From: Phyllobacterium myrsinacearum
Lineage (GTDB): Bacteria > Pseudomonadota > Alphaproteobacteria > Rhizobiales > Rhizobiaceae
Assembly (NCBI RefSeq): GCF_002980555.1
Contig: NZ_PVBT01000002.1
Coordinates: forward strand, 682,001-746,000
Reading direction: 5' to 3'
DNA length: 64,000 bases
Part shown: in pieces, positions 5,767 to 41,958 of the stretch
Position numbering within the stretch: the first letter of the stretch is position 1
Layout: each line of letters starts with the position of its first letter
Notes under the pieces: generated by a model
What the model saw: the letters and a program-made list of their open reading frames with translations, nothing else
Told to the model about the DNA's origin: nothing
The model's database searches: none
Translations under genes and position numbers: made by a program

Positions 5767-7236
5767 TCAGAACGGCATTTCGACCCGTGGCCAGATTTCG
5801 CGCGACAATTTCCGGTAGTCGGTTTTCTTCGGGTTGGACGGATAGGGCGCGCCGGCATCGATATAGATGATCTCTGCCGCGACCGGCTCGAAGCCTGCAT
5901 GAAAATGGTTGGTCGACTTGACCAGCAGGATGTTCTTGGACGCGGGTTCGATGCCGAGATTGGAAAAAATGTCGGGCTCGAACGTCTGGGTCCGGTTTGT
6001 ATTGAGGATGACCTCGATATCCGTGCCTTCAAGGCGGATGACCGCAGCCGGTCCGAGTGTGACCCGGCTCTTGCCGAAACTCTGCCAGCCTTCCTGCACG
6101 GCCCTCACGACGTCCACCCGGGCATCGATCGGTGCGCCGCCATCGGGACCTGCCTTGCCGCCGAAGCGCAGCTGGATTCGTGCGCCCTCACCGGCTGCGA
6201 GACAGAAGGTGACGGCAACCGGATCCCAGATCGTTGCCACGGCTACATTATCGATGCCGCGCTCGATGATGCGGCGCAGGATCAGCGTGCCGTCACCGGC
6301 AACGCCGCCGCCCGGATTATCCCAGACATCGGCGACAACCACCGGCTTTCCCGTCTTCTTTGCGGCGAGGGCGGCGGCCTTGTCGAGGCCTGTCTCGGTC
6401 CCCAGCATCGGCATGGCGGTGCGCCCGCGCATGCCAAAGATTTCCATGCCGAGGGATTCGGCCAGCGCCGCGCCGCGCGCTGCATCATTGTCGGTGACGA
6501 CCATGACCTGCGTGCCGAGTTCCGGCACATCGCCCGCCATGAAACCGTGGATCAGCGAGATGGAGAGAATGTTGTTCTTGCCCTGCATGGAATGAATCCG
6601 GTCGACGAAGGAACGCATCGGTTCGCGGCTGGTCGGGAAAACCCCGATCATGCGGCAATCGAAGGTAGAGATGACCGGCTTGATTTCACCCCGCAGCGTG
6701 CGCAGCGCGAGATCGACGACGTGTTCGCCGCGCTCGTAAAAATCCGTATGCGGGAATTCAAGGAAGGCAGCGAGAATATTCGAATTTTCGACGCGTTTGC
6801 GTGTCAGATGGCTGTGCGGATCAAGCTCCGACGCAATGAGCACGTCAGGGCCGACAATCGCGCGGATGCGCTCGAGCAGATCGCCTTCGCAATCATCATA
6901 GCCCTGGGCGACCATCGCCCCGTGCAGGCCAAGAATGACGGCGTCGACAGGCATGGCCGCCTGCAGCTGGCCGAGAATTTCGTCGCGCAGTTCCTCGTAA
7001 GCCCGCTGCTGCAAAAGCCCGCCGGGTTCGGCCCAGGTCGCGGTGCCCTCGATGAGTTCAAAACCCTCTTCGCGCGCGCGGCGGCGCAGAACCACCATGG
7101 GGGCCGAGCACAGCGTCGGTGTTTCCGGATGTTCGCCGGGGGCCGCATAGAAGGCCATTTCAAAACTGGCACGGTCGGTTGGTACAGGCGAAAACGTATT
7201 GGTTTCCGTCGCAAGGGATGCGGTGAAGATGCGCAT
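5767..7236 (-). CDS. M81 family metallohydrolase (MlrC-like)
   Basis: The 489-residue protein matches the M81/MlrC architecture: an N-terminal domain (about 1-290, starting MRIFTASLATETNTFSPVPT) and a C-terminal MlrC domain (about 300-475, with DNPGGGVAGDGT). Candidate zinc ligands lie in GLHGAMVAQGYDD, ELDPHSHLT and FPHTDFYERG. MlrC is known from microcystin degradation, where it cleaves linear peptides, but most members are uncharacterised amide-bond hydrolases. It is the last gene of a minus-strand unit with RidA and an importer, so the substrate is probably whatever that importer brings in. Confidence 0.88.
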   Translation of the reverse strand: MRIFTASLATETNTFSPVPTDRASFEMAFYAAPGEHPETPTLCSAPMVVLRRRAREEGFELIEGTATWAEPGGLLQQRAYEELRDEILGQLQAAMPVDAVILGLHGAMVAQGYDDCEGDLLERIRAIVGPDVLIASELDPHSHLTRKRVENSNILAAFLEFPHTDFYERGEHVVDLALRTLRGEIKPVISTFDCRMIGVFPTSREPMRSFVDRIHSMQGKNNILSISLIHGFMAGDVPELGTQVMVVTDNDAARGAALAESLGMEIFGMRGRTAMPMLGTETGLDKAAALAAKKTGKPVVVADVWDNPGGGVAGDGTLILRRIIERGIDNVAVATIWDPVAVTFCLAAGEGARIQLRFGGKAGPDGGAPIDARVDVVRAVQEGWQSFGKSRVTLGPAAVIRLEGTDIEVILNTNRTQTFEPDIFSNLGIEPASKNILLVKSTNHFHAGFEPVAAEIIYIDAGAPYPSNPKKTDYRKLSREIWPRVEMPF

Positions 7237-7258
7237 GAAAATGCCTGTTCTTTATATA

Positions 7259-7624
7259 TCAGAGGGGCTTGTAGGCAATGGCTTCGATTTCGATCTTGAT
7301 ATCGATCATCAGACGCGATTCAATCGTTGTGCGTGCTGGCGGGTTCTGCGGAAAATAGGCCGCGTAGGTCTTGTTGAAGGCGGCGAACTCGCGCGCATCT
7401 TCGAGAATGACAAAGGTCTTCACCACATCGGACAGATCCGCGCCGGCCAGTGCCAACGCTGCCTTGATGTTCTCCATCACCTGCCTTGTCTGCGCCTCGA
7501 TGCCGCCTGTGATGACCGTGCCATCGCCGCCGACCGGGACCTGGCCGGAAATGTAGATGAAATCTCCGGCGCGGACGGCCGGTGACAGCGGCACATGTGA
7601 TGATCCGAAATGCTGTTTTGTCAT
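7259..7624 (-). CDS. RidA family enamine/imine deaminase
   Basis: The 121-residue protein is a standard RidA (YjgF/UK114) subunit, which forms trimers and hydrolyses reactive 2-enamines and imines released by PLP enzymes. The catalytic arginine is present (Arg98 in PPARTTIE), as is the C-terminal KIEIEAIA strand with its conserved Glu, so this is the deaminating type and not an orphan Rid variant. The ATG at 7624 is 22 bases downstream of the permease stop. A PLP enzyme that should release just such intermediates lies in the same island at 13697-14755. Confidence 0.93.
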   Translation of the reverse strand: MTKQHFGSSHVPLSPAVRAGDFIYISGQVPVGGDGTVITGGIEAQTRQVMENIKAALALAGADLSDVVKTFVILEDAREFAAFNKTYAAYFPQNPPARTTIESRLMIDIKIEIEAIAYKPL

Positions 7625-7646
7625 GATGTTCAATTCCTGTGCTTGA

Positions 7647-8474
7647 TTATTTGACGGCGCCGATGGAAAGCCCGCGCACGAGATAGCGCTGCAACCACGC
7701 AAAGAGAATGGCGACCGGGACGGATGCCACAAATGCCGCAGCCATGACGTAGTGCCAGTCGACCGTGTAACGGCCGGCGACAAGCGACAGCACGCGGATC
7801 GGCAGGGTATAATTCTCCTCCTTGCGCAGCATGGTGAGCGCGATGACGAACTCGTTCCAGGCATTGATGAAGGTGAAGATGGCGGTGACGACCATTGCGG
7901 GGACGGCAAGCGGCAGGAAGACGCTGCGCAGCGTGCGCCAGCGATTTGCCCCTTCCATCCACGCGGCCTCTTCAAGATCGCGCGGGATGGTGGAGAAATA
8001 GCTTTGCAGCATCCATACGCAGAAGGCGATGTTGAAGCCGGTGTAGATGATGACAAGCACGTTCAAGTTGTCGATCATCCCGGCATTGGCGACGAGCCGG
8101 AACAGGCCGATGACCAGCACAATGGGCGACAGCATCTGCGAGACAAGGAGGAACTGCCGGTAGGCGTTGCGGCCGGCAAACTGGTAGCGGCTGAGGGCAT
8201 AGGCGGCAGGAATGGAGACGATGATTGTCAGCAGGGTCGACAGCGTCGACACATAGAGCGAATTGGCAAGCGCCGAGGCAATGCCCGAGGTCTGCCACAT
8301 CTCCGAAAAGTTCTGCCAGTGCAGCTCTTCCGGCCACCAGGTGGGGTTGAGCACTTCGGTTGCCGATTTGAGTGACGTGATCGTCATGACGACATAGGGA
8401 AAGAGAATCACCACCACGATGGGCGACAGGAACAGCCAGAACAGGATCGAGCGCTTGAGCTTGGCGTTCATCAT
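7647..8474 (-). CDS. ABC importer permease, MalG-like (CUT1 family)
   Basis: The 275-residue inner-membrane protein has six predicted transmembrane segments, starting with [20 protein letters not shown]. It carries the cytoplasmic EAA loop ([19 protein letters not shown]) that docks with the ATPase. It is the second permease of a carbohydrate-uptake-1 type importer; its start overlaps the stop of the preceding permease by four bases. GGAG five bases before the ATG at 8474 supports that start, though the adjacent ATG at 8471 is possible. Confidence 0.92.
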
Positions 8475-9340
8475 GGCTTCTCCTCGCGCATGGCCAGCCG
8501 CACATAGATGAGCGTGAAGACCAGAAGGATGGCGAACATGATCAGCGAGATCGCCGCCGCCTCGCCGAGGCGTCCCAGGCGGAAGCCGAGCTCGTAGAGA
8601 TAGGTCACGAGAATATGGGTCGAATTGGCAGGCCCGCCCTGCGTGGTTACCCAGATGATCGGGAAGGAGTTGAAGACGTAGATCGTGTTGAGCACGAACG
8701 CGATGTTGATGAAGGGCCGTAACAGGGGAAGCGTGATCAGGCGGAACTGATCCCAGCGCCCTGCCCCTTCCGTTGCGGCCGCCTCATAGAGATCATCGGG
8801 AACCGACGACAGGCCGCCGAGGAAAATGGTGACGGTAAACGGCACCGAGACGAGAATGCCAATCAGGATCTGCATCGGAAAGGCCGTGGATGCCTCGGCC
8901 AGCCACTGGATATTGCTGCCGATCAGGCCAAGGTCACGCAGCGCCGAGTTCAGCATGCCGCTTTCACCATTGAGCGCCCAGCGCCAGACCACGGCGGTCA
9001 TGGTCAGCGAGATCGCCCAGGGCAGCATGATGAGGATGCGGGCAATGCCGCGGCCATAGAAATCCTCGTTGAGGATCAGCGCGATGGGGACCGACACGAT
9101 CAGCGTGCCGAGCACGACGCAGGCGGTCCAGATCAGGGTGCGCCAGGTGGCGGCGATGAAATCCGGATCGGCGAACAGCACGCGGAAATGCTCAAGCCCG
9201 ACGAATTCGCGCAGCATGCCGAAGCGGTTCACGTCATGCAGCGACAGCGAAACGATCTCCTTCAGCGGCCAGAGAATGATGGCGGCTGCCAGGATGAAGC
9301 TTGGCAGAATGAGGAAATAGGGGGCCGTTGCCCGTTGCAT
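8471..9340 (-). CDS. ABC importer permease, MalF-like (CUT1 family)
   Basis: This 289-residue protein has six transmembrane segments and an EAA loop ([20 protein letters not shown]). It pairs with the MalG-like protein encoded immediately downstream, with overlapping stop and start codons. Upstream is the cognate binding-protein gene, separated by 97 bases. The ATPase for the system is encoded on the other strand at 11743-12810, next to the regulator and catabolic enzymes. Confidence 0.92.
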
Positions 9341-28725: not shown

Positions 28726-32502
<3,777 letters not shown>

Positions 32503-32648: not shown

Positions 32649-33413
32649 CTATTTTTCTCCCGTTCGTTTCAGAAGATAGGTATCCATGATCCAGCCTTTT
32701 TGCTGCCGCGCGACCATGCGCAGGCGTTCGATCTCATCGACAACATCGCGCAGCCGCCCGGACAGAAGAATTTCGTCCTGCGTGCCGACATAGGCGCCCC
32801 AATAGATATCGACATCTTCCTTGACGGTCTTGAATGCGCCCTCGCCGTCAAGCATCACGACGATGCTTTCCGAATTGTTGGGAAACCCCTCCTCCAGCTT
32901 GCGGCCGGTGGTGATGGTGATCGATTCGCCGATGCGATTGAGGACCACCTTGTGTTTCGCGGTGAGCGCCTGAATGGCGGTGATGCCCGGTATCACGTCA
33001 TATTCCAGCTCGAAGCCACCCTTGGCATTAAGGCGATCGAGAATCCGCAGCGTGCTGTCATAAAGCGAGGGGTCGCCCCAGACGAGAAACGCCCCGCACT
33101 CGTCGTCACCAAGCTCCTCGAGCAGCAGATGCTCATAGGCCGCTTCGACCCTGTCGTGCCATTCCTCGACACTGGCGCGGTAGGTTGAAGAGGGCTTGTG
33201 ACGGACGGGCGTTTCAAAATCGACCATGCGGTAGTCGTGGCCGGTGATGAAGCGCTCGCAGATTTCGCGGCGGATGCGCGCAAGCTGTTCCTTCTCGGCA
33301 CCCTTGTCGGGGATGAAGAAGACATCGACCTGATTGAGCGCGTTCACCGCCTGAATGGTGACGTAATCGGGGTTTCCAGCCCCGATGCCGATGATGAGAA
33401 CCTTGCGTTTCAT
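32649..33413 (-). CDS. cobF: Precorrin-6A synthase (deacetylating)
   Basis: CobF methylates C-1 of precorrin-5 and removes the acetyl group in the aerobic cobalamin pathway. The 254-residue protein is a tetrapyrrole methylase with the SAM-site start [20 protein letters not shown], then FLVWGDPSLYDSTLRI and DVIPGITAIQALTAKH. It is the last gene of the apparent nrdA-nrdB-orf-cobF operon: its ATG overlaps the small upstream ORF by four bases. No other cobalamin synthesis genes are in the window, so it is separated from the main cob cluster. Through the operon it would come under the cobalamin riboswitch at 37817-38002. Confidence 0.95.
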   Translation of the reverse strand: MKRKVLIIGIGAGNPDYVTIQAVNALNQVDVFFIPDKGAEKEQLARIRREICERFITGHDYRMVDFETPVRHKPSSTYRASVEEWHDRVEAAYEHLLLEELGDDECGAFLVWGDPSLYDSTLRILDRLNAKGGFELEYDVIPGITAIQALTAKHKVVLNRIGESITITTGRKLEEGFPNNSESIVVMLDGEGAFKTVKEDVDIYWGAYVGTQDEILLSGRLRDVVDEIERLRMVARQQKGWIMDTYLLKRTGEK

Positions 33414-33634
33414 TGTGCCGTCCGCACACTCTGCGGCCGTATCGCTGCTCTCTTCTCGCTGATCAGGGCGCAGAAGAGATCATGCAGCCGTTTGGCGCCC
33501 GGATGGCTTGCATAGCGGCGCAGCCGTGCCACTTCGGCACTGGCCGCAGCGACGAGATCGCCATTCCTGGGTTGCCGCATCAGCCAGGCAACGAATACAT
33601 CCTCGGGAGCAGGCATCCTGTTGATCAATCCCAT
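33410..33634 (-). CDS. Small hypothetical protein between nrdB and cobF
   Basis: This 74-residue product starts [20 protein letters not shown] and is predicted helical, basic at its C-terminus, with no signal peptide or membrane segment. It overlaps nrdB by ten bases and cobF by four, so translation of all three is coupled. I do not recognise a family. The tight double overlap is the main evidence that it is a real gene. It could serve either reductase assembly or corrin synthesis; nothing in the sequence decides between them. Confidence 0.7.
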
Positions 33635-34816: not shown

Positions 34817-37696
34817 TTACTGGCAGGCTTCGCAGTCCGGATCGTTGATCGAGCAGGCATTGCCGGCCGGCTCCGACAGGATGATCGGTTCGGCAACCGG
34901 CTTGGCGGCGACGGCATTGAGCTTGCCGTCCGTGCCTTTCAGCGTGGACTTTTCCACGTGCGAGGCCGAGCGCGAGCGCAGGTAATAGGTCGTCTTCAGG
35001 CCGCTGTTCCAGGCGAGGCGATAGAGCTCATCGAGCTTCTTGCCGCTCGGGTTGGCAATATAGAGATTGAGCGACTGGGCCTGATCGATCCATTTCTGCC
35101 GGCGCGAAGCCGCTGCAATCAGCCATGCGCTGTCGATTTCGAATGCCGTGGCATAGAGGGCTTTGAGGTCGGCGGGAATACGGCCGATTTCACCCACCGA
35201 GCCATCGAAATATTTCAGGTCCGAAATCATCACTTCGTCCCACAGCCCGCGCTGCTTCAGGTCATGCACCAGCGCGGCATTCACGACGGTGAAGTCGCCC
35301 GACATGTTGGATTTGACGAAGAGGTTCTGATAGGCGGGCTCGATAGACTGGGCGACGCCGCAAATGTTGGAAATCGTTGCGGTGGGGGCAATCGCCATGG
35401 TGTTGGAATTGCGCATTCCGGTTATCGTCACCCGCTTGCGCAGGGCTTCCCAGTCAAGGGTGGTGCTGCGGTCCATCGAAAGACTGGCGCCGGCCGCCGT
35501 GCGGGCCTGATCGAGCAGTTCGATGGAATCGATGGGGAGAATGCCCTTCGACCAGAGCGAGCCGTTGAAGCTTGGATAGCTGCCGCGTTCGCTGGCGAGG
35601 TCAACCGATGCCGAAATGGCATGGTAGGAAATGGCTTCCATGCTGAGATCGGCAAAAGCCACGGCCTCATCGGACGCGTAGGGAATGCGCAGAGCCTGCA
35701 ATGCATCCTGGAACCCCATCAGCCCGAGGCCGACCGGACGGTGACGCAGGTTGGAAGAGCGCGCTTCGGGGATGGTGTAGAAGTTGATGTCGATGACATT
35801 GTCGAGCATGCGCATGGCCGTCGCCACAGTGCGGCCGAGACGCTCAAGGTCGAGGCCCTCGGCTGCAATGTGATTGGCAAGATTGATCGAGCCAAGATTG
35901 CACACCGCAACTTCATCCTTCGATGTGTTGAGGGTAATCTCGGTGCACAGGTTCGAGGAATGCACGACGCCGGCGTGACCCTGCGGCGAGCGGATATTGC
36001 AGGGGTCCTTGAATGTGACCCAGGGATGGCCGGTCTCGAACAGCATGGTGAGAATCCGGCGCCAGAGGTCCAGGGCGCGAACGGTGCGGAAGACGCGGAT
36101 TTCACCACGCGCAGCCTTGGCTTCATAAGCCTCGTAGGCGGATTTGAATGCTGCGCCATAGAGGTCGTGCAGATCCGGCGTCTCGTCGGGTGAGAACAGG
36201 GTCCATGGCTCGTCCTTTTCCACGCGGCTCATGAACAGATCGGGCACCCAGTTGGCCGTGTTCATGTCATGGGTGCGGCGGCGGTCGTCACCGGTATTCT
36301 TGCGCAGATCAAGGAATTCCTCGATGTCGACATGCCAGGTCTCGAGATAGGCGCAGACCGCGCCTTTGCGCTTGCCGCCCTGGTTGACCGCGATGGCCGT
36401 ATCATTGGCCACTTTCAGAAACGGTACGACACCCTGGCTTTCGCCGTTGGTTCCCTTGATATGGGCGCCAAGACCGCGCACCGGCGTCCAGTCATTGCCG
36501 AGGCCGCCGGAATATTTCGCCAGGAGCGCATTGTCCTTCACCGCCTTGAAGATGCCGTCGAGATCGTCGGCAACGGTGGTCAGGAAGCAGGACGACAGCT
36601 GCGGCCGCAATGTGCCGGAATTGAACAGCGTCGGGGTGGATGCCATGAAATCAAAGGATGACAGAAGGTTGTAGAATTCGATGGCGCGCGCTTCCCGGTC
36701 GATCTCGCGGGTGGCAAGGCCCATAGCGACGCGCATCAGGAAAGCCTGCGGCAGCTCGAAGCGGATGCCGCGCGTCTGCTGGAGATAGCGGTCATACAGC
36801 GTCTGCAGGCCGAGATACTGGAACTGCAGGTCGCGTTCCGGCTTCAGGGCAGCTGCGATTTTACGCAGGTCGAAGCGGGCGAGTTCCGGATCGAGCAGTT
36901 CGGCTTCAATACCAGCCTTCACATAGGCCGGGAAGTAATCGGCATAGCGTTCCGCCATTTCATGCTGGGTTGCCTGTTCGGGGCGGCCGAAGACAAAGCT
37001 CAAGGCTTCGCGGCGCAGCTTGTCGAGAAGCAGCCGCGCGGTGACAAAGGCGTAGTTCGGTTCGGTTTCAACCAGCGTGCGCGCCGCCAGAATGGGTGCA
37101 AGCGATAACTCGTCAAGGGTAATGCCATCGTAGAGATTGCGCTGGGTTTCGCTGAGGATTGGCGCGGCGCTGACCCCCTCAAGTCCTTCGCAGGCTTCAT
37201 CGATGATGCGGGCAAGACGCACCGTATCGAGCGGTGCCCTGGTGCCACCCGGCAGGGTCACGCTCAGCGACGGGCCGGTTTCAGCCACCGGTTCAACCAG
37301 CTTCGCCCGTTCTCGCGCGCGTTCTTCCCGGTAGAGAACATAGGCGCGCGCAACCTTGTGGTTTTCGCCGCGCATGAGGGCAAGTTCAACCTGGTCCTGC
37401 ACGTCTTCAATGTGAAACAGACGCCCTTCGCTGCTGCGGCGCTTCAACGTTGTCACGATGTCGGTGGTCAGGCCTTCGACGACATCATGCACGCGGCGTG
37501 AACCGGCGGCGACATTGCCTTCAACGGCGAGGAAGGCTTTGGTCAGGGCAACGGTGATTTTCAACGGGTCGAAGAGGGTAACCGAACCATTGCGGCGAAT
37601 GACGCGATAGCCGGGCTCGGCGGACGTAGATTGTGTTTCGCCGTGACGAATGGGTGCAAGTCCATCGGTGCGAGTGGTTTCAAGAGAAAGAGACAT
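34817..37696 (-). CDS. nrdA: Class I ribonucleotide reductase large subunit (R1) with ATP-cone region
   Basis: The 959-residue catalytic subunit reduces ribonucleotides to deoxyribonucleotides with NrdB. An ATP-cone begins near residue 30 ([18 protein letters not shown]), and a second cone-like segment spans about 145-240 ([19 protein letters not shown]). Catalytic parts include the SSCFLTT and [11 protein letters not shown] cysteine segments, [11 protein letters not shown], and a C-terminal Cys-x6-Cys-x2-Cys tail for re-reduction. The start is ATG 37696; its only ribosome site, GGGG, lies in the arm of a hairpin at 37706-37720. A cobalamin riboswitch precedes the gene. Confidence 0.95.
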
Positions 37697-37705
37697 GTGC
37701 TTATA

Positions 37706-37720
37706 CCCCAAATGTTGGGG
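37706..37720 (-). promoter_or_regulatory. Hairpin holding the nrdA ribosome-binding site
   Basis: On the minus strand CCCCAA-cat-TTGGGG forms a stem-loop ending nine bases before the nrdA ATG. The GGGG of its 3' arm is the only Shine-Dalgarno-like sequence there. It may be the output element of the upstream riboswitch, acting on translation. No U-run follows, so it is not a terminator. Confidence 0.45.
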
Positions 37721-37816
37721 GCAAAGGTCGAGCGCACGCGTGCAAGAATCCGGTCAGCTTGCGGCCGACCATTGCAAGCGACACACCGGGACACCCCGCC
37801 CGTGGACGTTCATCAT

Positions 37817-38002
37817 GTCATGGCAGGTCTCCTGGCTCACAGGTCGGCGCTGGTGTCGGCCTTCCCGAAGCGGGGCTCCAGTGGCATTGTCGACAACAAC
37901 TCGCTGTTTACAGTTGCGGGGGCAGCGCCGGCATCAATGTCCAGGACATCTCACCGGCTTCCCTCTTAGCTCCCGGTCTTGCGACTCGGGGAGAACCATA
38001 AC
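37817..38002 (-). ncRNA. Adenosylcobalamin (B12) riboswitch upstream of nrdA
   Basis: Read on the minus strand, this region holds the conserved elements of cobalamin riboswitches in the right order: GGGAAGCCGGTGAGA, GCTGCCCCCGCAACTGTA, the B12 box GCCACTGG (core at 37879-37885), TTCGGGAAGGC, and GTGAGCCAGGAGACCTGCC. The ends pair as a P1 stem, GTTATGG (38002-37996) with CCATGAC (37823-37817). It begins just below a promoter and ends 120 bases before nrdA. High cobalamin should reduce expression of the nrdA-nrdB-orf-cobF unit. A SD-sequestering hairpin downstream suggests control of translation. Confidence 0.95.
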
Positions 38003-38048
38003 ATCTATATTTAGTATCAAATTGCCATCTACAGTCAATAGGTAGATA
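38002..38048 (-). promoter_or_regulatory. nrdA promoter with two NrdR-box-like elements
   Basis: On the minus strand TTGACT (38033-38038), a 16-base spacer and TACTAA (38011-38016) form a plausible promoter whose start point would fall at the riboswitch's first bases. Two 16-mers, at 38033-38048 and 38002-38017, resemble the NrdR box (consensus ACACWATATATWGTGT, 9 and 11 matches) and lie 31 bp apart, the three-turn spacing usual for NrdR. The promoter is fairly clear; the boxes are tentative. Confidence 0.4.
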
Positions 38049-38065
38049 GCGACATCTTCGCTTGC

Positions 38066-38857
38066 TCAGAACGTTGCGGATTGCGGCAACACGAACGGCA
38101 CGGATTTTCCGGGCAGACCGCCGACCTTGAGCGCACATTCATAAACACGCAGAATGCGGTCATCCGTCAAGACCTCCATGGGCGTACCCACAGAATCGGC
38201 CCTTCCCTTGTGCATAACCACGACGCGGTCGGCAAACATGGAGGTCAGGTTGAGATCGTGCAGGATCGCGATAACCCCGCCACCGCGATCGGCGAAGTCG
38301 CGGGCAATCTGCATGATGATCAACTGATGCTTGATATCGAGGCTCGACACCGGCTCATCGAGAAAAAGAAAGCGGGGCTGGCCGTCCAGCACCGGCTGCC
38401 AGACCTGGCAGAGGACGCGCGCCAGTTGCACCCGCTGCTGCTCGCCGCCGGAAAGTTCCTGATAGAACCGCCCGCCAAAACCCGCGAGGTCGACCCGTTC
38501 GAGCGCTTCGTCCGGCAACGTTTCCACGTTGTGCCGCGCGGCGCCGGAGCGGCCGCTGGTCATGCCCAGCTTGACAATCTCGCGCACGGTAAACGGAAAG
38601 GACAGCGAGGTGGATTGCGGCAGGATCGCCCGCATGCTTGCCATCTGCCAGAGCTTCAGCCGGTTGATCGGCACACCGTTGATGCTGATGACACCCTCAT
38701 GCGGCAGGTCGCCGGAGAGTGCGCGCATCAGCGTTGTCTTGCCTGATCCGTTGGGGCCGACGATGACGCAGAATGCGCCCGCCTCCGCATCGAAGGATAC
38801 ATGCTCGACAATCCTGCTTCGACCGAGAGAGACAGAGACATTGGAAACACGGATCAT
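38066..38857 (-). CDS. hmuV: Hemin ABC importer ATPase
   Basis: The 263-residue protein has Walker A VGPNGSGKTTL, signature LSGGEQQRVQLARVL, Walker B FLFLDEPVSSLD and switch ILHDLN, the pattern of FecE/BtuD-type ATPases. It energises heme uptake with HmuU. Its ATG is two bases after the hmuU stop. It is the last gene of hmuPSTUV and ends 64 bases before the first base of the downstream riboswitch. A BtuD role was considered because of that neighbour, but the linked hmuS and hemP genes settle on heme. Confidence 0.94.
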   Translation of the reverse strand: MIRVSNVSVSLGRSRIVEHVSFDAEAGAFCVIVGPNGSGKTTLMRALSGDLPHEGVISINGVPINRLKLWQMASMRAILPQSTSLSFPFTVREIVKLGMTSGRSGAARHNVETLPDEALERVDLAGFGGRFYQELSGGEQQRVQLARVLCQVWQPVLDGQPRFLFLDEPVSSLDIKHQLIIMQIARDFADRGGGVIAILHDLNLTSMFADRVVVMHKGRADSVGTPMEVLTDDRILRVYECALKVGGLPGKSVPFVLPQSATF

Positions 38858-38859
38858 GA

Positions 38860-39981
38860 TCAGAGGTCCAGAATGCCGCGGCGGCGCAGCAATATCCACA
38901 GGAAGAACGGTGCGCCGACGGCCGCCGTGACGATGCCGATGGGCAGTTCGGACGGCGCAACGATGGTCCGGCTGACCGCATCGGCAATCAGCAGCAGGCT
39001 GGCGCCAAGGAGAGCGGCGGCCGGCAGGAGATAGCGGTGATCGGGACCGATCACGAGGCGCAGAAGATGCGGAACAACCACGCCGACAAAGCCGATGCCG
39101 CCGCTGACCGCAACCGATGCGCCGGTCGCTGCTGCAACCGTGACAATGGCGATGCGTTTGAAGCGCTGCACCGGGATGCCGAGATGACTGGCCGATGCTT
39201 CCCCGAGGGCGAGCCCGTTGAGGCCGCGCGCGAGGAATGGCGAAATGACAAGGGCCAGCGCAATGAGCGGGCCGGACGCTGCGATCTTGACCCAGTTGGC
39301 TCCCGCCAGCGATCCCAGTCCCCAGAATGTCAGGTCGCGCAACTGTTTGTCGTCGGCGATATAGACCAGGACCCCGATATAGGCGGCGGCCATGGCGCCA
39401 AGCGCTATGCCGGCAAGCAGCATGGTGGCGATGGATGTCTGTCCGCGCCGGGTTGCGACCCGGTAGAGGACGAGCGTGAAGATGAGTGCGCCGAAAAAAG
39501 CGGCAAGCGGCAAGGCGTAGAGACTGAACAGGGCGATCATCGGGGCGAGGAAGGTTCCGCCGAGAACGATGATGCTGACAGCGCCAAGCCCGGCGCCCGC
39601 CGAGACGCCGACGATGCCGGGGTCGGCCAGCGGATTGCGGAACAATCCCTGCATGACCGCACCCGATACGGCAAGGGACGCGCCGATCAGCGCGCCGAGA
39701 ATGACGCGCGGCAGGCGGATATCGTAGATGATGATGCGGTCGCGGACGGAAAGCCCATTGTCCGCCGCATCGGTTCCGGCAATCAATGTCTTGACGACGG
39801 AGAGGACCGACGCATCGGATGCACCAAAGGCAAGGCTGAAGACGATGGTGGCGGCAAGCACCAAGCACAGGCAGGCAATGACCATGCGCGCCAATGCCGA
39901 CCGGTCGCCCTCCGGGCGCAGCCTTCTGCCGCCCCGTGCGGAAGCAAGGACGGCAGGCTTTCTCAAGACGGTCTCACTCAT
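38860..39981 (-). CDS. hmuU: Hemin ABC importer permease (FecCD family)
   Basis: The 373-residue inner-membrane protein has about ten transmembrane segments and FecCD landmarks (RLPRVILGALIGASLAVSGA, GIALGAMAAAYIG, and GFVGVVVPHLLRL). It carries heme across the inner membrane from HmuT. The ATG overlaps the hmuT stop by four bases. The first 30 residues are basic and cytoplasmic. Confidence 0.94.
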   Translation of the reverse strand: MSETVLRKPAVLASARGGRRLRPEGDRSALARMVIACLCLVLAATIVFSLAFGASDASVLSVVKTLIAGTDAADNGLSVRDRIIIYDIRLPRVILGALIGASLAVSGAVMQGLFRNPLADPGIVGVSAGAGLGAVSIIVLGGTFLAPMIALFSLYALPLAAFFGALIFTLVLYRVATRRGQTSIATMLLAGIALGAMAAAYIGVLVYIADDKQLRDLTFWGLGSLAGANWVKIAASGPLIALALVISPFLARGLNGLALGEASASHLGIPVQRFKRIAIVTVAAATGASVAVSGGIGFVGVVVPHLLRLVIGPDHRYLLPAAALLGASLLLIADAVSRTIVAPSELPIGIVTAAVGAPFFLWILLRRRGILDL

Positions 39982-40889
39982 TTGCCGAGTTCGTTGCCGT
40001 ACATGGCCTGTGCCAGTTCGTGAATTGCCTTCGGCGCGCGCGGCCCGAAGCCCAGCAGATACTGGCCGCCCATGCGGATGATCTTCTTGTCCTTGCCTGC
40101 GGGCGTTGCGGCGATCGCCGCATTGGCAAGAAGATCGGCATTGTTGGACGAATGGTCACCGCCGCGGTCCATGACCAGAATGACGTCGGGTTTGGCCGTG
40201 ATGATCGCCTCGTCCGTCAATGGCTTGTATCCGGGATATTCCGTGATCGCATTGTCGGCACCGGCCAGCGCAATGATGCCATTGGCGGCTGTCCTGGTGC
40301 CGGAGGCCATGATCTTGCCGCCCTGAGCGCTGAGGACGAATAGGACGCGCTTGCGGTTCTTGATGTTTTTCGTCGCGTCCTCGGCCGCCTGCAAATCCTT
40401 CTCGATTTGCGATGCCAGCTTTTCGGCTTTTTCATCAACACCGAGGGCTGTGCCCACGGCCCGTATTTTTGCCGGGATGCTTTTCCCCGTATAGTCCTCC
40501 GGTACGAAGACAAAGGGGATGCTGGCCTTCTTCAGGACATCAATCGTCTCCTTCGGACCGCTGCCTTCCACGGCAATGATGGCTGTCGGGTTGATCGAAA
40601 GAACACCTTCCGGCGACAGCGCACGCATGTAGCCGACATCGGGCAGCTTTTGCGCCGCCTGCGGATAGGTGCTCGTCTGGTCGCGGCCGACAAGGTGCCC
40701 CTCCTCTCCCAGCGCATAGATGATCTCCGTGATGGAGTCGCCGATGGACACCACCCGGCTGGCATCGGGAAGACGGCCGGTGACTTCTTCGGCGGATGCC
40801 ATGCCGTTCGGGGTCAGCAATGCCATCAGCCCGGCGAGTGAAACGGCGAGATACAGCCTTGCCGGCTTGCTCTGGCGTTTAGCGAACAT
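39978..40889 (-). CDS. hmuT: Periplasmic hemin-binding protein
   Basis: The 303-residue protein has a signal peptide ending NGMASA and a cobalamin/heme-type binding fold with DASRVVSIGDSITEIIYALG and the VGYMRALSPEGVLSINPT segment typical of HmuT. It hands heme to HmuUV. I start at ATG 40889 with AAGGA seven bases upstream; the in-frame ATG at 40895 abuts that site. It follows hmuS by ten bases. Confidence 0.93.
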   Translation of the reverse strand: MFAKRQSKPARLYLAVSLAGLMALLTPNGMASAEEVTGRLPDASRVVSIGDSITEIIYALGEEGHLVGRDQTSTYPQAAQKLPDVGYMRALSPEGVLSINPTAIIAVEGSGPKETIDVLKKASIPFVFVPEDYTGKSIPAKIRAVGTALGVDEKAEKLASQIEKDLQAAEDATKNIKNRKRVLFVLSAQGGKIMASGTRTAANGIIALAGADNAITEYPGYKPLTDEAIITAKPDVILVMDRGGDHSSNNADLLANAAIAATPAGKDKKIIRMGGQYLLGFGPRAPKAIHELAQAMYGNELGK

Positions 40890-40899
40890 GGTCATTTCC

Positions 40900-41958
40900 T
40901 TACGCGGCCGAACGCAGGATGCGGGGCAGGTTTTCAACAAGCTGGCGCCAGTCGCCCCGTTCGCCCGAACCCTCGTGGCGTTTGCCGAAGAACTGGATGA
41001 TCATCTCGCCGTCGGCGCCGTAGGCTTCGAGCGATGTCACATGCCCATCCTTGGTCGGCTTGCGCACGGCCCACAACTCGGCAATGTGGTCGAGACGCAG
41101 ATGCATATGAAACGTTTCATCAAGGATATTGAGCCATGGCCCCATCGTCTTGATATTCGAAATCGGACCCGAATGAATCTGGATGCAGCCGCGATTGCCG
41201 ACAAAGCACATGATCGGTATCTGTTCCTGCACCGCATGCTGCATCATGGCGCTCAAGGCGTCACGATCCAATGCCCAGGCATAATCCTGCCCGATCACCT
41301 GCACCGCCTGATGGCGCGTCATCTTTAGCGAGCGCAGAATGCCGAAGAATTCATGCACATCCTTCATCTGCGTCCAGCGATCGCGCAGGCCGTCCGCATC
41401 AAGTTCATGAATTTCCGCGGTCTTCTCCTCGGGCTTCGGCAGCGCGGTCAATTCAATGCTTTGCGACTGGTCGTCGAGACGCAGCTTGGTGACAAGGGCA
41501 TGGTAGGCGTCGAGATCCGAAGCGGGCCGCAGATGGATTTTGTGGATTGCCTCACCGGCGGCATCGAAGAACTGGAGACTGCGGCGGGTGAATTCGCCGT
41601 CCTGCTTTTCCACCGCAAAGCCGTGCGCCCAGCTGTCGGGAAACAGCCGCAGATCAATCTGTTCGCCCAGCAGCATGGAGGCGTGCTTGCCGACGATGGG
41701 CTTGTCGTAGACGCCGATCTTTTCGTGCACGGCGCTTTCGTTGCGCGTCAGCGCCATCACCTCGCCGAGGGTCTGTATCTCGGTCAGGAAGGTTTCGATG
41801 CGCGGTGTAATGCGAACAACATTGAGGCCGCAAAAGGCTGCAACCAGATCGGCCTCGGTAATGCCAAGCTGCTGGGCGAGGTCACGCTCGCGCATTTTGG
41901 GATTGTCTTCCCGAGCTTGCCGGATGTCCTGGGGGGCTGGCTTGTGCGTATCAGTCAT
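40900..41958 (-). CDS. hmuS: Hemin-degrading / heme-handling factor HmuS
   Basis: The 352-residue cytoplasmic protein matches HmuS/HemS in length and has the two tandem repeats of that family (first starting RERDLAQQLGITEADLVAA, second around DGLRDRWTQMKDVHEFFGIL). Family members bind incoming heme and either traffic it or break it to release iron. It lies between hmuP and hmuT in one operon. Confidence 0.94.
   Translation of the reverse strand: MTDTHKPAPQDIRQAREDNPKMRERDLAQQLGITEADLVAAFCGLNVVRITPRIETFLTEIQTLGEVMALTRNESAVHEKIGVYDKPIVGKHASMLLGEQIDLRLFPDSWAHGFAVEKQDGEFTRRSLQFFDAAGEAIHKIHLRPASDLDAYHALVTKLRLDDQSQSIELTALPKPEEKTAEIHELDADGLRDRWTQMKDVHEFFGILRSLKMTRHQAVQVIGQDYAWALDRDALSAMMQHAVQEQIPIMCFVGNRGCIQIHSGPISNIKTMGPWLNILDETFHMHLRLDHIAELWAVRKPTKDGHVTSLEAYGADGEMIIQFFGKRHEGSGERGDWRQLVENLPRILRSAA

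Follow-up and report, generated by a model that had tools for sequence, protein, structure and literature searches.

A cobalamin riboswitch at the head of nrdAB-orf-cobF in Phyllobacterium myrsinacearum, a probable B12 off-switch for the B12-independent ribonucleotide reductase

Why is a ribonucleotide reductase that works without vitamin B12 preceded by a sensor for this vitamin? The question is raised by a 64,000-nt stretch of the Phyllobacterium myrsinacearum genome (the window: genome G000, 5.44 Mb, contig C2, positions 682001-746000), in which a cobalamin riboswitch heads a minus-strand cluster in the order riboswitch, nrdA, nrdB, a 74-aa open reading frame (orf), cobF and metH (Table 1). 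Our answer, which we hold with a probability of about 0.88, is that this adenosylcobalamin (AdoCbl) riboswitch at the head of nrdAB-orf-cobF keeps the B12-independent reductase off while B12 and the B12-dependent reductase NrdJ are available. Coenzyme B12, where present, would make NrdJ available, and the riboswitch would then keep nrdAB off. Because the Streptomyces case and the isozyme rule described below are published, riboswitch control of a class I reductase is regarded as already known. The parts regarded as fresh are the linkage to cobF and a riboswitch relic in a relative (G313) that lacks NrdJ. Additions to the first-pass annotation are the cobF linkage, the candidate NrdR boxes and the likely translational mode.

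The riboswitch and the reductases of the genome

The aptamer is matched by the Rfam model RF00174 over its full length, with 134.8 bits against a gathering score of 31.5, and this is the sole Rfam match above gathering score within the window. It lies on the sense strand directly before nrdA, with 108 nt between its 3' end and the start codon. The first-pass annotation of this DNA, made from the letters alone, had placed such a riboswitch on the nrdA coding strand, complete with B12 box and closing P1 stem, and had named scoring with the Rfam cobalamin model as a check. The match is far above the gathering score (E 9.3e-34), and the quoted motifs (GGGAA, CUGCCCCCGCAACUGUAA, CGGGAAGGC and GAGCCAGGAGACCUGCC) are all there. 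The P1 stem is also present, but it is imperfect, with several non-standard pairs marked in the Rfam alignment.

The NrdA and NrdB equivalogs encoded downstream are adjacent and both score above their NCBIfam cut-offs, as in a class Ia operon. In NrdA, Pfam identifies an ATP-cone (one matched), Ribonuc_red_lgN and Ribonuc_red_lgC. The nrdJ gene, which had been predicted to lie elsewhere, was found on contig C1 (819456-823238, minus strand, 1260 aa; NF005736 2354 bits, TIGR02504 567 bits). Class III NrdD was not found in a search of the genome, in which the sole NrdF-family match is nrdB itself. The B12-dependent NrdJ is encoded alongside a riboswitch-led nrdAB in the same genome, and it is to such pairs of isozymes that a rule on B12-elements applies. 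Vitreschak and Rodionov (2003) reportedly described B12-element regulation of B12-independent isozymes. Under this rule, cobalamin represses the B12-independent isozyme where both occur (PMC2211319). The same rule would hold here; it was counted in a sample of one family and for both subtypes, class Ia and class Ib, and a relic was found in addition. Streptomyces offers a parallel, since B12 riboswitch control of a class I reductase with NrdJ in the same genome is established there, and nrdABS of Streptomyces coelicolor likewise has a cobalamin riboswitch before class Ia nrdAB (PMC4991794, passages on this operon).

Genome-wide, there were seven RF00174 matches. The genes led by them are nrdA, metE, bluB, cobP (followed by frames that read by eye as cobN and cobO), an iron/corrinoid-type ABC ATPase gene and a gbcAB-like pair; the seventh match is weak (32.3 bits) and no target was assigned to it. 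With MetE and NrdAB behind B12 riboswitches and MetH and NrdJ both present, two B12-independent isozymes are under B12 riboswitches in this genome. The nrdA leader is 75% identical to the metE leader over most of the aptamer and platform, so that copying of leaders between B12-regulated genes is conceivable. The riboswitch before the glycine betaine monooxygenase-like pair (L014:3350-5792, about 124349-126791 on C1) scores 104 bits. Both members of the pair are under their cut-offs (GbcA 523 bits, cut-off 670; GbcB 379 bits, cut-off 500). As other bacteria, some Hyphomicrobiales included, have a cobalamin-dependent system for the demethylation of betaine (PMC12478193), the pair might represent a third B12-independent isozyme controlled by B12.

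Leader, promoter and mode of control

The kissing loop of cobalamin riboswitches is formed by the loops named L5 and L13. In the nrdA leader, L13 GCGGGG (37794-37799) is the exact 6-nt complement of L5 CCCCGC, the pairing expected for the kissing loop that is described for btuB (PMC7689651, in the section concerned). CGGGG stands at the L13 place in 52 of the 54 nrdA leaders and is absent in L081 and L085. The second conserved element lies at the Shine-Dalgarno sequence GGGG (37706-37709, 9 nt before the nrdA ATG), over which a hairpin can form. When the best helix was taken from each leader, one of at least 4 bp facing the Shine-Dalgarno sequence was obtained in 52 of the 53 nrdA leaders searched. 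Among 46 distinct cases, the fifth base pair of the helix was G-C 29 times and A-U 9 times. The helix score averaged 9.67 in 51 distinct leaders and 7.56 in dinucleotide shuffles, with 8.37 as the highest of 200 shuffled sets. L172, which comes from the same genome as L060, had been removed as a duplicate before the helices were counted. Choosing the best helix favours pairing and sometimes picks a distant helix, and the comparison with shuffles serves as the control.

When the nrdA leader is folded without constraints, its P13/L13 strand is paired to CUUUGCCC, a segment overlapping the hairpin's CCCC, and this alternative pairing suggests a switch. With AdoCbl bound, L5 (CCCCGC) would hold L13 (GCGGGG), so that the CCCC near the start codon would be free to pair with the Shine-Dalgarno GGGG and would thereby block initiation at nrdA. 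Without AdoCbl, the P13/L13 strand (GGGCGGGG) would instead pair with CUUUGCCC, occupy part of the CCCC and let ribosomes enter. The nrdA leader probably acts on translation.

An alternative is that the riboswitch controls nrdA transcription, by termination or in a Rho-dependent manner. The nrdABS switch of Streptomyces coelicolor is reportedly transcriptional, and is called so in the title of Borovok et al. (2006); Rho-dependent loss could also follow once translation is blocked. However, no intrinsic terminator-like site was detected in a scan of the leader region (37600-38300), and the hairpin over the Shine-Dalgarno sequence recurs in relatives. In addition, the metE and btuB riboswitch leaders of Caulobacter crescentus, which are alphaproteobacterial as well, gave B12-dependent translational shut-off in reporters (PMC6538847, reporter results), although the targets there are metE and btuB and not nrdAB. 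Unlike nrdABS, where nrdS follows and control is called transcriptional, the operon in the window continues with orf and cobF, and its leader looks translational. We thus consider transcriptional control unlikely and prefer the translational off-switch.

A promoter had also been proposed just upstream of the riboswitch. The sigma-70 scan found none, but TTGACT-16-TACTAA at 38038-38011 is plausible, and TTGAC was seen by eye at about the same position in 21 of 22 riboswitch leaders compared. Two candidate NrdR boxes, 31 bp apart, overlap the -35 and -10 elements of this putative promoter. With the NrdR box consensus as the scoring basis, 31 bp was the best box-pair spacing in both leader sets, with mean scores of 21.5 for 37 NrdA leaders and 22.3 for 34 NrdE leaders; the next best spacings reached 18.8 and 20.4, and the shuffled maxima were 16.8 and 17.0, respectively. 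Three duplicate loci were dropped from this analysis, and the duplicate genome G003 (L057, L200) was kept in the NrdE set. All 12 nrd leaders in the genus set reach at least 21.5, and none of 10 other riboswitch leaders exceeds 17.0. The promoter's TTGAC contributes to the score of box 1, a share that is controlled for because most non-nrd leaders have TTGAC, too. A stronger candidate pair, again 31 bp apart (score 27.0), lies upstream of nrdJ (L011, upstream of 6239). In Streptomyces coelicolor, NrdR boxes are found at class I and class II promoters (PMC9110341). The conserved G-C pairs of two boxes, placed at 9/18 and 40/49 in the same paper, are also 31 apart. Transcription of nrdA is probably repressed by NrdR through the candidate pair overlapping the promoter, as at nrdJ. 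NrdR would then set the total amount of reductase, and the riboswitch would choose which reductase is made.

Association of the riboswitch with NrdJ

If the riboswitch spares the cell a second reductase while NrdJ can work, it should accompany NrdJ in relatives. The genus sample consisted of the genome itself and 20 others. All 21 encode NrdJ, and in 11 of them a class I reductase is present as well (8 NrdA, 3 NrdE). Among the RF00174 matches listed, which were used for presence only, there is one just upstream on the same strand at each of the 11 class I reductases. One of these genomes, G017, holds a further weak R1-like match of 146 bits. The family sample comprised 297 genomes, with NrdA in 36 and NrdE in 48 at E 1e-150, and riboswitches were called with an nhmmer profile of 22 aptamers (E <1e-5, same strand, within 2.5 kb). 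Where NrdJ is encoded, a riboswitch was found before NrdA at 31 of 33 loci and before NrdE at 32 of 33; where it is not, the figures were 0 of 3 for NrdA and 0 of 17 for NrdE. By genome, the class I reductase (NrdAB or NrdHIEF) has a riboswitch in 62/64 cases with NrdJ and in 0/19 without (Fisher p 8e-17 with no correction for relatedness; counting the G313 relic gives 1/19 and p 5e-15). For the counts by genome, G328 was left out of the tested set, because its partial nrdA is preceded by just 22 nt of sequence; G028 was counted with NrdJ from sub-cut-off pieces on two contigs, and G025 without NrdJ despite a sub-cut-off match of 251 bits. The claim that nrdAB is a backup to NrdJ when B12 is low draws support from the riboswitch, from nrdJ and from this family-wide link. 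No paper that joins nrdHIEF, riboswitch and cobalamin was found in the literature searched; eight papers there contain cobF, riboswitch and nrd.

When the 22 negative loci (20 without NrdJ, plus G203 and G075) were rechecked with Rfam, a single Cobalamin match appeared, in G313, with 34.6 bits. The stretch falls within 727 nt that align (79%) with the G199 locus that has the riboswitch; its own B12 box is broken, and it is therefore read as a riboswitch relic. G313 (L249:3643-3849 and L210) has two nearly identical nrdE copies; the decayed riboswitch lies before one of them, and the other is preceded by no more than a short remnant (69 nt, 81%). The relic suggests that the sensor decays where NrdJ is missing. 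Since a decayed riboswitch does occur in this NrdJ-less genome, the one in the window might be taken for a non-functional leftover as well. With an aptamer of 134.8 bits, an intact B12 box, a conserved platform and NrdJ in the genome, we give this idea next to no credence and retain the functional off-switch.

Several observations weigh against the proposed control. The effect of B12 on nrdA expression is a prediction from sequence. Folding with L13 free or blocked did not reproduce the switch: the Shine-Dalgarno sequence was mostly paired in both states, with an unpaired probability of 0.04 versus 0.00 in the nrdA leader and at most 0.25 in any of 19 leaders. The switching step is a proposal for this reason, as computed access was low in both states in all 19 leaders. 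Moreover, the stability of a 196-nt fold around the platform does not clearly exceed that of shuffled sequences (z -1.13). As for the association, the genomes are related and the p value given above is inflated as a result. On the NrdE tree, which requires only five changes of NrdJ state, there are four independent pairs on supported branches that differ in NrdJ, of which three agree, none opposes and one shows no difference in the riboswitch; with so few independent pairs the association is not significant once corrected for phylogeny (p 0.25). Two genomes break the rule. In G203, which has NrdJ, nrdHIEF lacks a riboswitch within 1.5 kb; G075 carries a NrdA that is only 64% identical, on a contig with repeats that is perhaps a contaminant. 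Finally, the decayed aptamer of G313 passes the Rfam threshold in a genome without NrdJ.

The known rule gains a countable test from these data: a class I reductase of either subtype is riboswitch-led with NrdJ and not without it. If this is upheld with more independent losses, the riboswitch would be a genome-readable marker of the reductase normally used. If the sensor does decay on NrdJ loss, its presence would also report a lineage's reliance on NrdJ.

The wider set consisted of 80 named nrdA loci from public genomes, none of them labelled Phyllobacterium. A riboswitch is upstream of nrdA in 16/16 Hyphomicrobiales loci (L070-L084, L099) and in one Acidobacteria metagenome-assembled genome (L085). 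Because the profile was built from alphaproteobacteria, further loci were checked with Rfam. Of ten actinobacterial loci, five have a riboswitch before nrdA (L096, L097, L100, L102, L105) and five do not (L086, L087, L088, L092, L095); by the same method, none was found before nrdA at five gamma- and betaproteobacterial loci (L089, L094, L109, L113, L123) or in Arboricoccus, an alphaproteobacterium (L107). For all other named loci, the result comes from the alphaproteobacterial profile only, and the named-locus counts concern the riboswitch alone. In L085, a match span of 4300 nt had pointed to an intein, which was rejected: nrdA is 6001-8781, and the extra piece is separate and follows nrdB. 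This ATP-cone-like segment (L085:10028-10300) is 33% identical over 99 aa to the NrdA ATP-cone region and is perhaps nrdR.

Linkage to cobF and neighbouring genes

The orf overlaps both nrdB and cobF (Table 1), and nrdB-orf-cobF are therefore likely translated from one transcript. If the leader acts on nrdA translation, control of cobF needs coupling or polarity. When B12 is low, cobF, coupled downstream, would rise with nrdAB. We tentatively extend this to a single B12 sensor on one transcript with two answers to shortage, nrdAB and cobF, and a small protein between them, the sensor decaying when NrdJ is lost; we lean somewhat against this fuller picture. Through this linkage, it can be tested directly whether synthesis of the vitamin and its bypass are controlled together.

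Table 1. Features of the nrdA locus, in window coordinates
Feature	Coordinates	Strand	Basis or remark
Candidate NrdR box 1	38033..38048	-	holds -35-like TTGACT
Candidate NrdR box 2	38002..38017	-	holds -10-like TACTAA
Cobalamin riboswitch aptamer	37805..38015	-	RF00174, 134.8 bits, E 9.3e-34, model 1-189 of 189
L5 CCCCGC, putative kissing-loop partner of L13	37916..37921	-	sequence and Rfam alignment; analogy to btuB
P13/L13 hairpin, putative expression platform, loop CGGGGUGU	37784..37804	-	role inferred
Hairpin CCCCAA-CAU-UUGGGG over Shine-Dalgarno	37706..37720	-	sequence; recurrent in relatives
nrdA, class I ribonucleotide reductase large subunit, 959 aa	34817..37696 (ATG at 37696)	-	NF005544 1687 bits, cut-off 965
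nrdB, class I small subunit, 380 aa	33625..34767	-	NF005550 675 bits, cut-off 309; Pfam Ribonuc_red_sm
Small orf, 74 aa	33410..33634	-	10-nt overlap with nrdB end; ATGA overlap with cobF start
cobF, precorrin-6A synthase	32649..33413	-	TIGR02434 360 bits, cut-off 195.8
metH, B12-dependent methionine synthase	28726..32502	-	NF007024 2194 bits; 146 nt after cobF

Does the riboswitch then mainly serve B12 synthesis through cobF, with nrdAB merely lying in between? The gene order of the window recurs in G017, G012, G016 and G013, cobF follows nrdB in 5/8 nrdA genomes of the genus sample, and the same is seen in two genomes of other genera (G249, G164). Two other species of the genus, G003 and G001, have no NrdAB, and there a leader with 76-79% identity to the nrdA leader even stands directly before orf-cobF, with CCCC (UUCCC in G001) and GGGG before the orf start. 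On the other hand, riboswitch-led nrdAB without a nearby cobF is the commoner arrangement: of 13 family loci for which sequence downstream of nrdB was fetched, 2 encode CobF, and a search of the 80 named loci, with flanks of up to 6 kb, gave no CobF. Class Ib nrdHIEF operons bear the riboswitch, too, and the Shine-Dalgarno hairpin covers nrdA itself. It is thus very improbable that cobF is the main target, and we keep to nrdAB. In three genus genomes with nrdA (G004, G007, G009), cobF is missing at the locus and was not found in the genome. In G003, G001 and G019, nrdHIEF lies behind a riboswitch of its own. An insertion of nrdAB between an old riboswitch and cobF was considered and not upheld; since nrdB is followed by cobF or the orf in other genera, too (G249, G164, G292), G003 and G001 may just as well have lost nrdAB.

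The 74-aa product had no NCBIfam match at E 1e-4, and Pfam gave only DUF3288 below cut-off (E 0.21). Small proteins of this kind (74-87 aa where read, no family match over cut-off) recur directly behind cobalamin riboswitches, in the window (33410-33634, minus strand) and at L061, L062, L065 and L067, beside cobF, metH or a btuB-like receptor gene, the last so labelled by eye. At L067:738-5142 (G031), the order is cobalamin riboswitch, small orf and B12-dependent metH, which is unexpected for a B12 off-switch.

In the window, a scan of the gap between cobF and metH, which are on the same strand, gave no terminator on that strand. There is a promoter-like match over the metH start (32509-32482, minus strand; one match, shuffle mean 0.6). 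The nearest records in a plasmid collection are from Phyllobacterium, with 82-87% identity; the host fields of these records show that the genus is known from root nodules. On a 612-kb plasmid of Phyllobacterium sp. 628, the same order is annotated as alpha subunit, beta subunit, hypothetical protein, cobF and metH. Immediately upstream of the riboswitch and on the same strand (38093-41958, minus) lies a heme-uptake-type cluster encoding an ABC ATPase, a BtuC/FecD-like permease, a binding protein and a HemS/ChuX protein.

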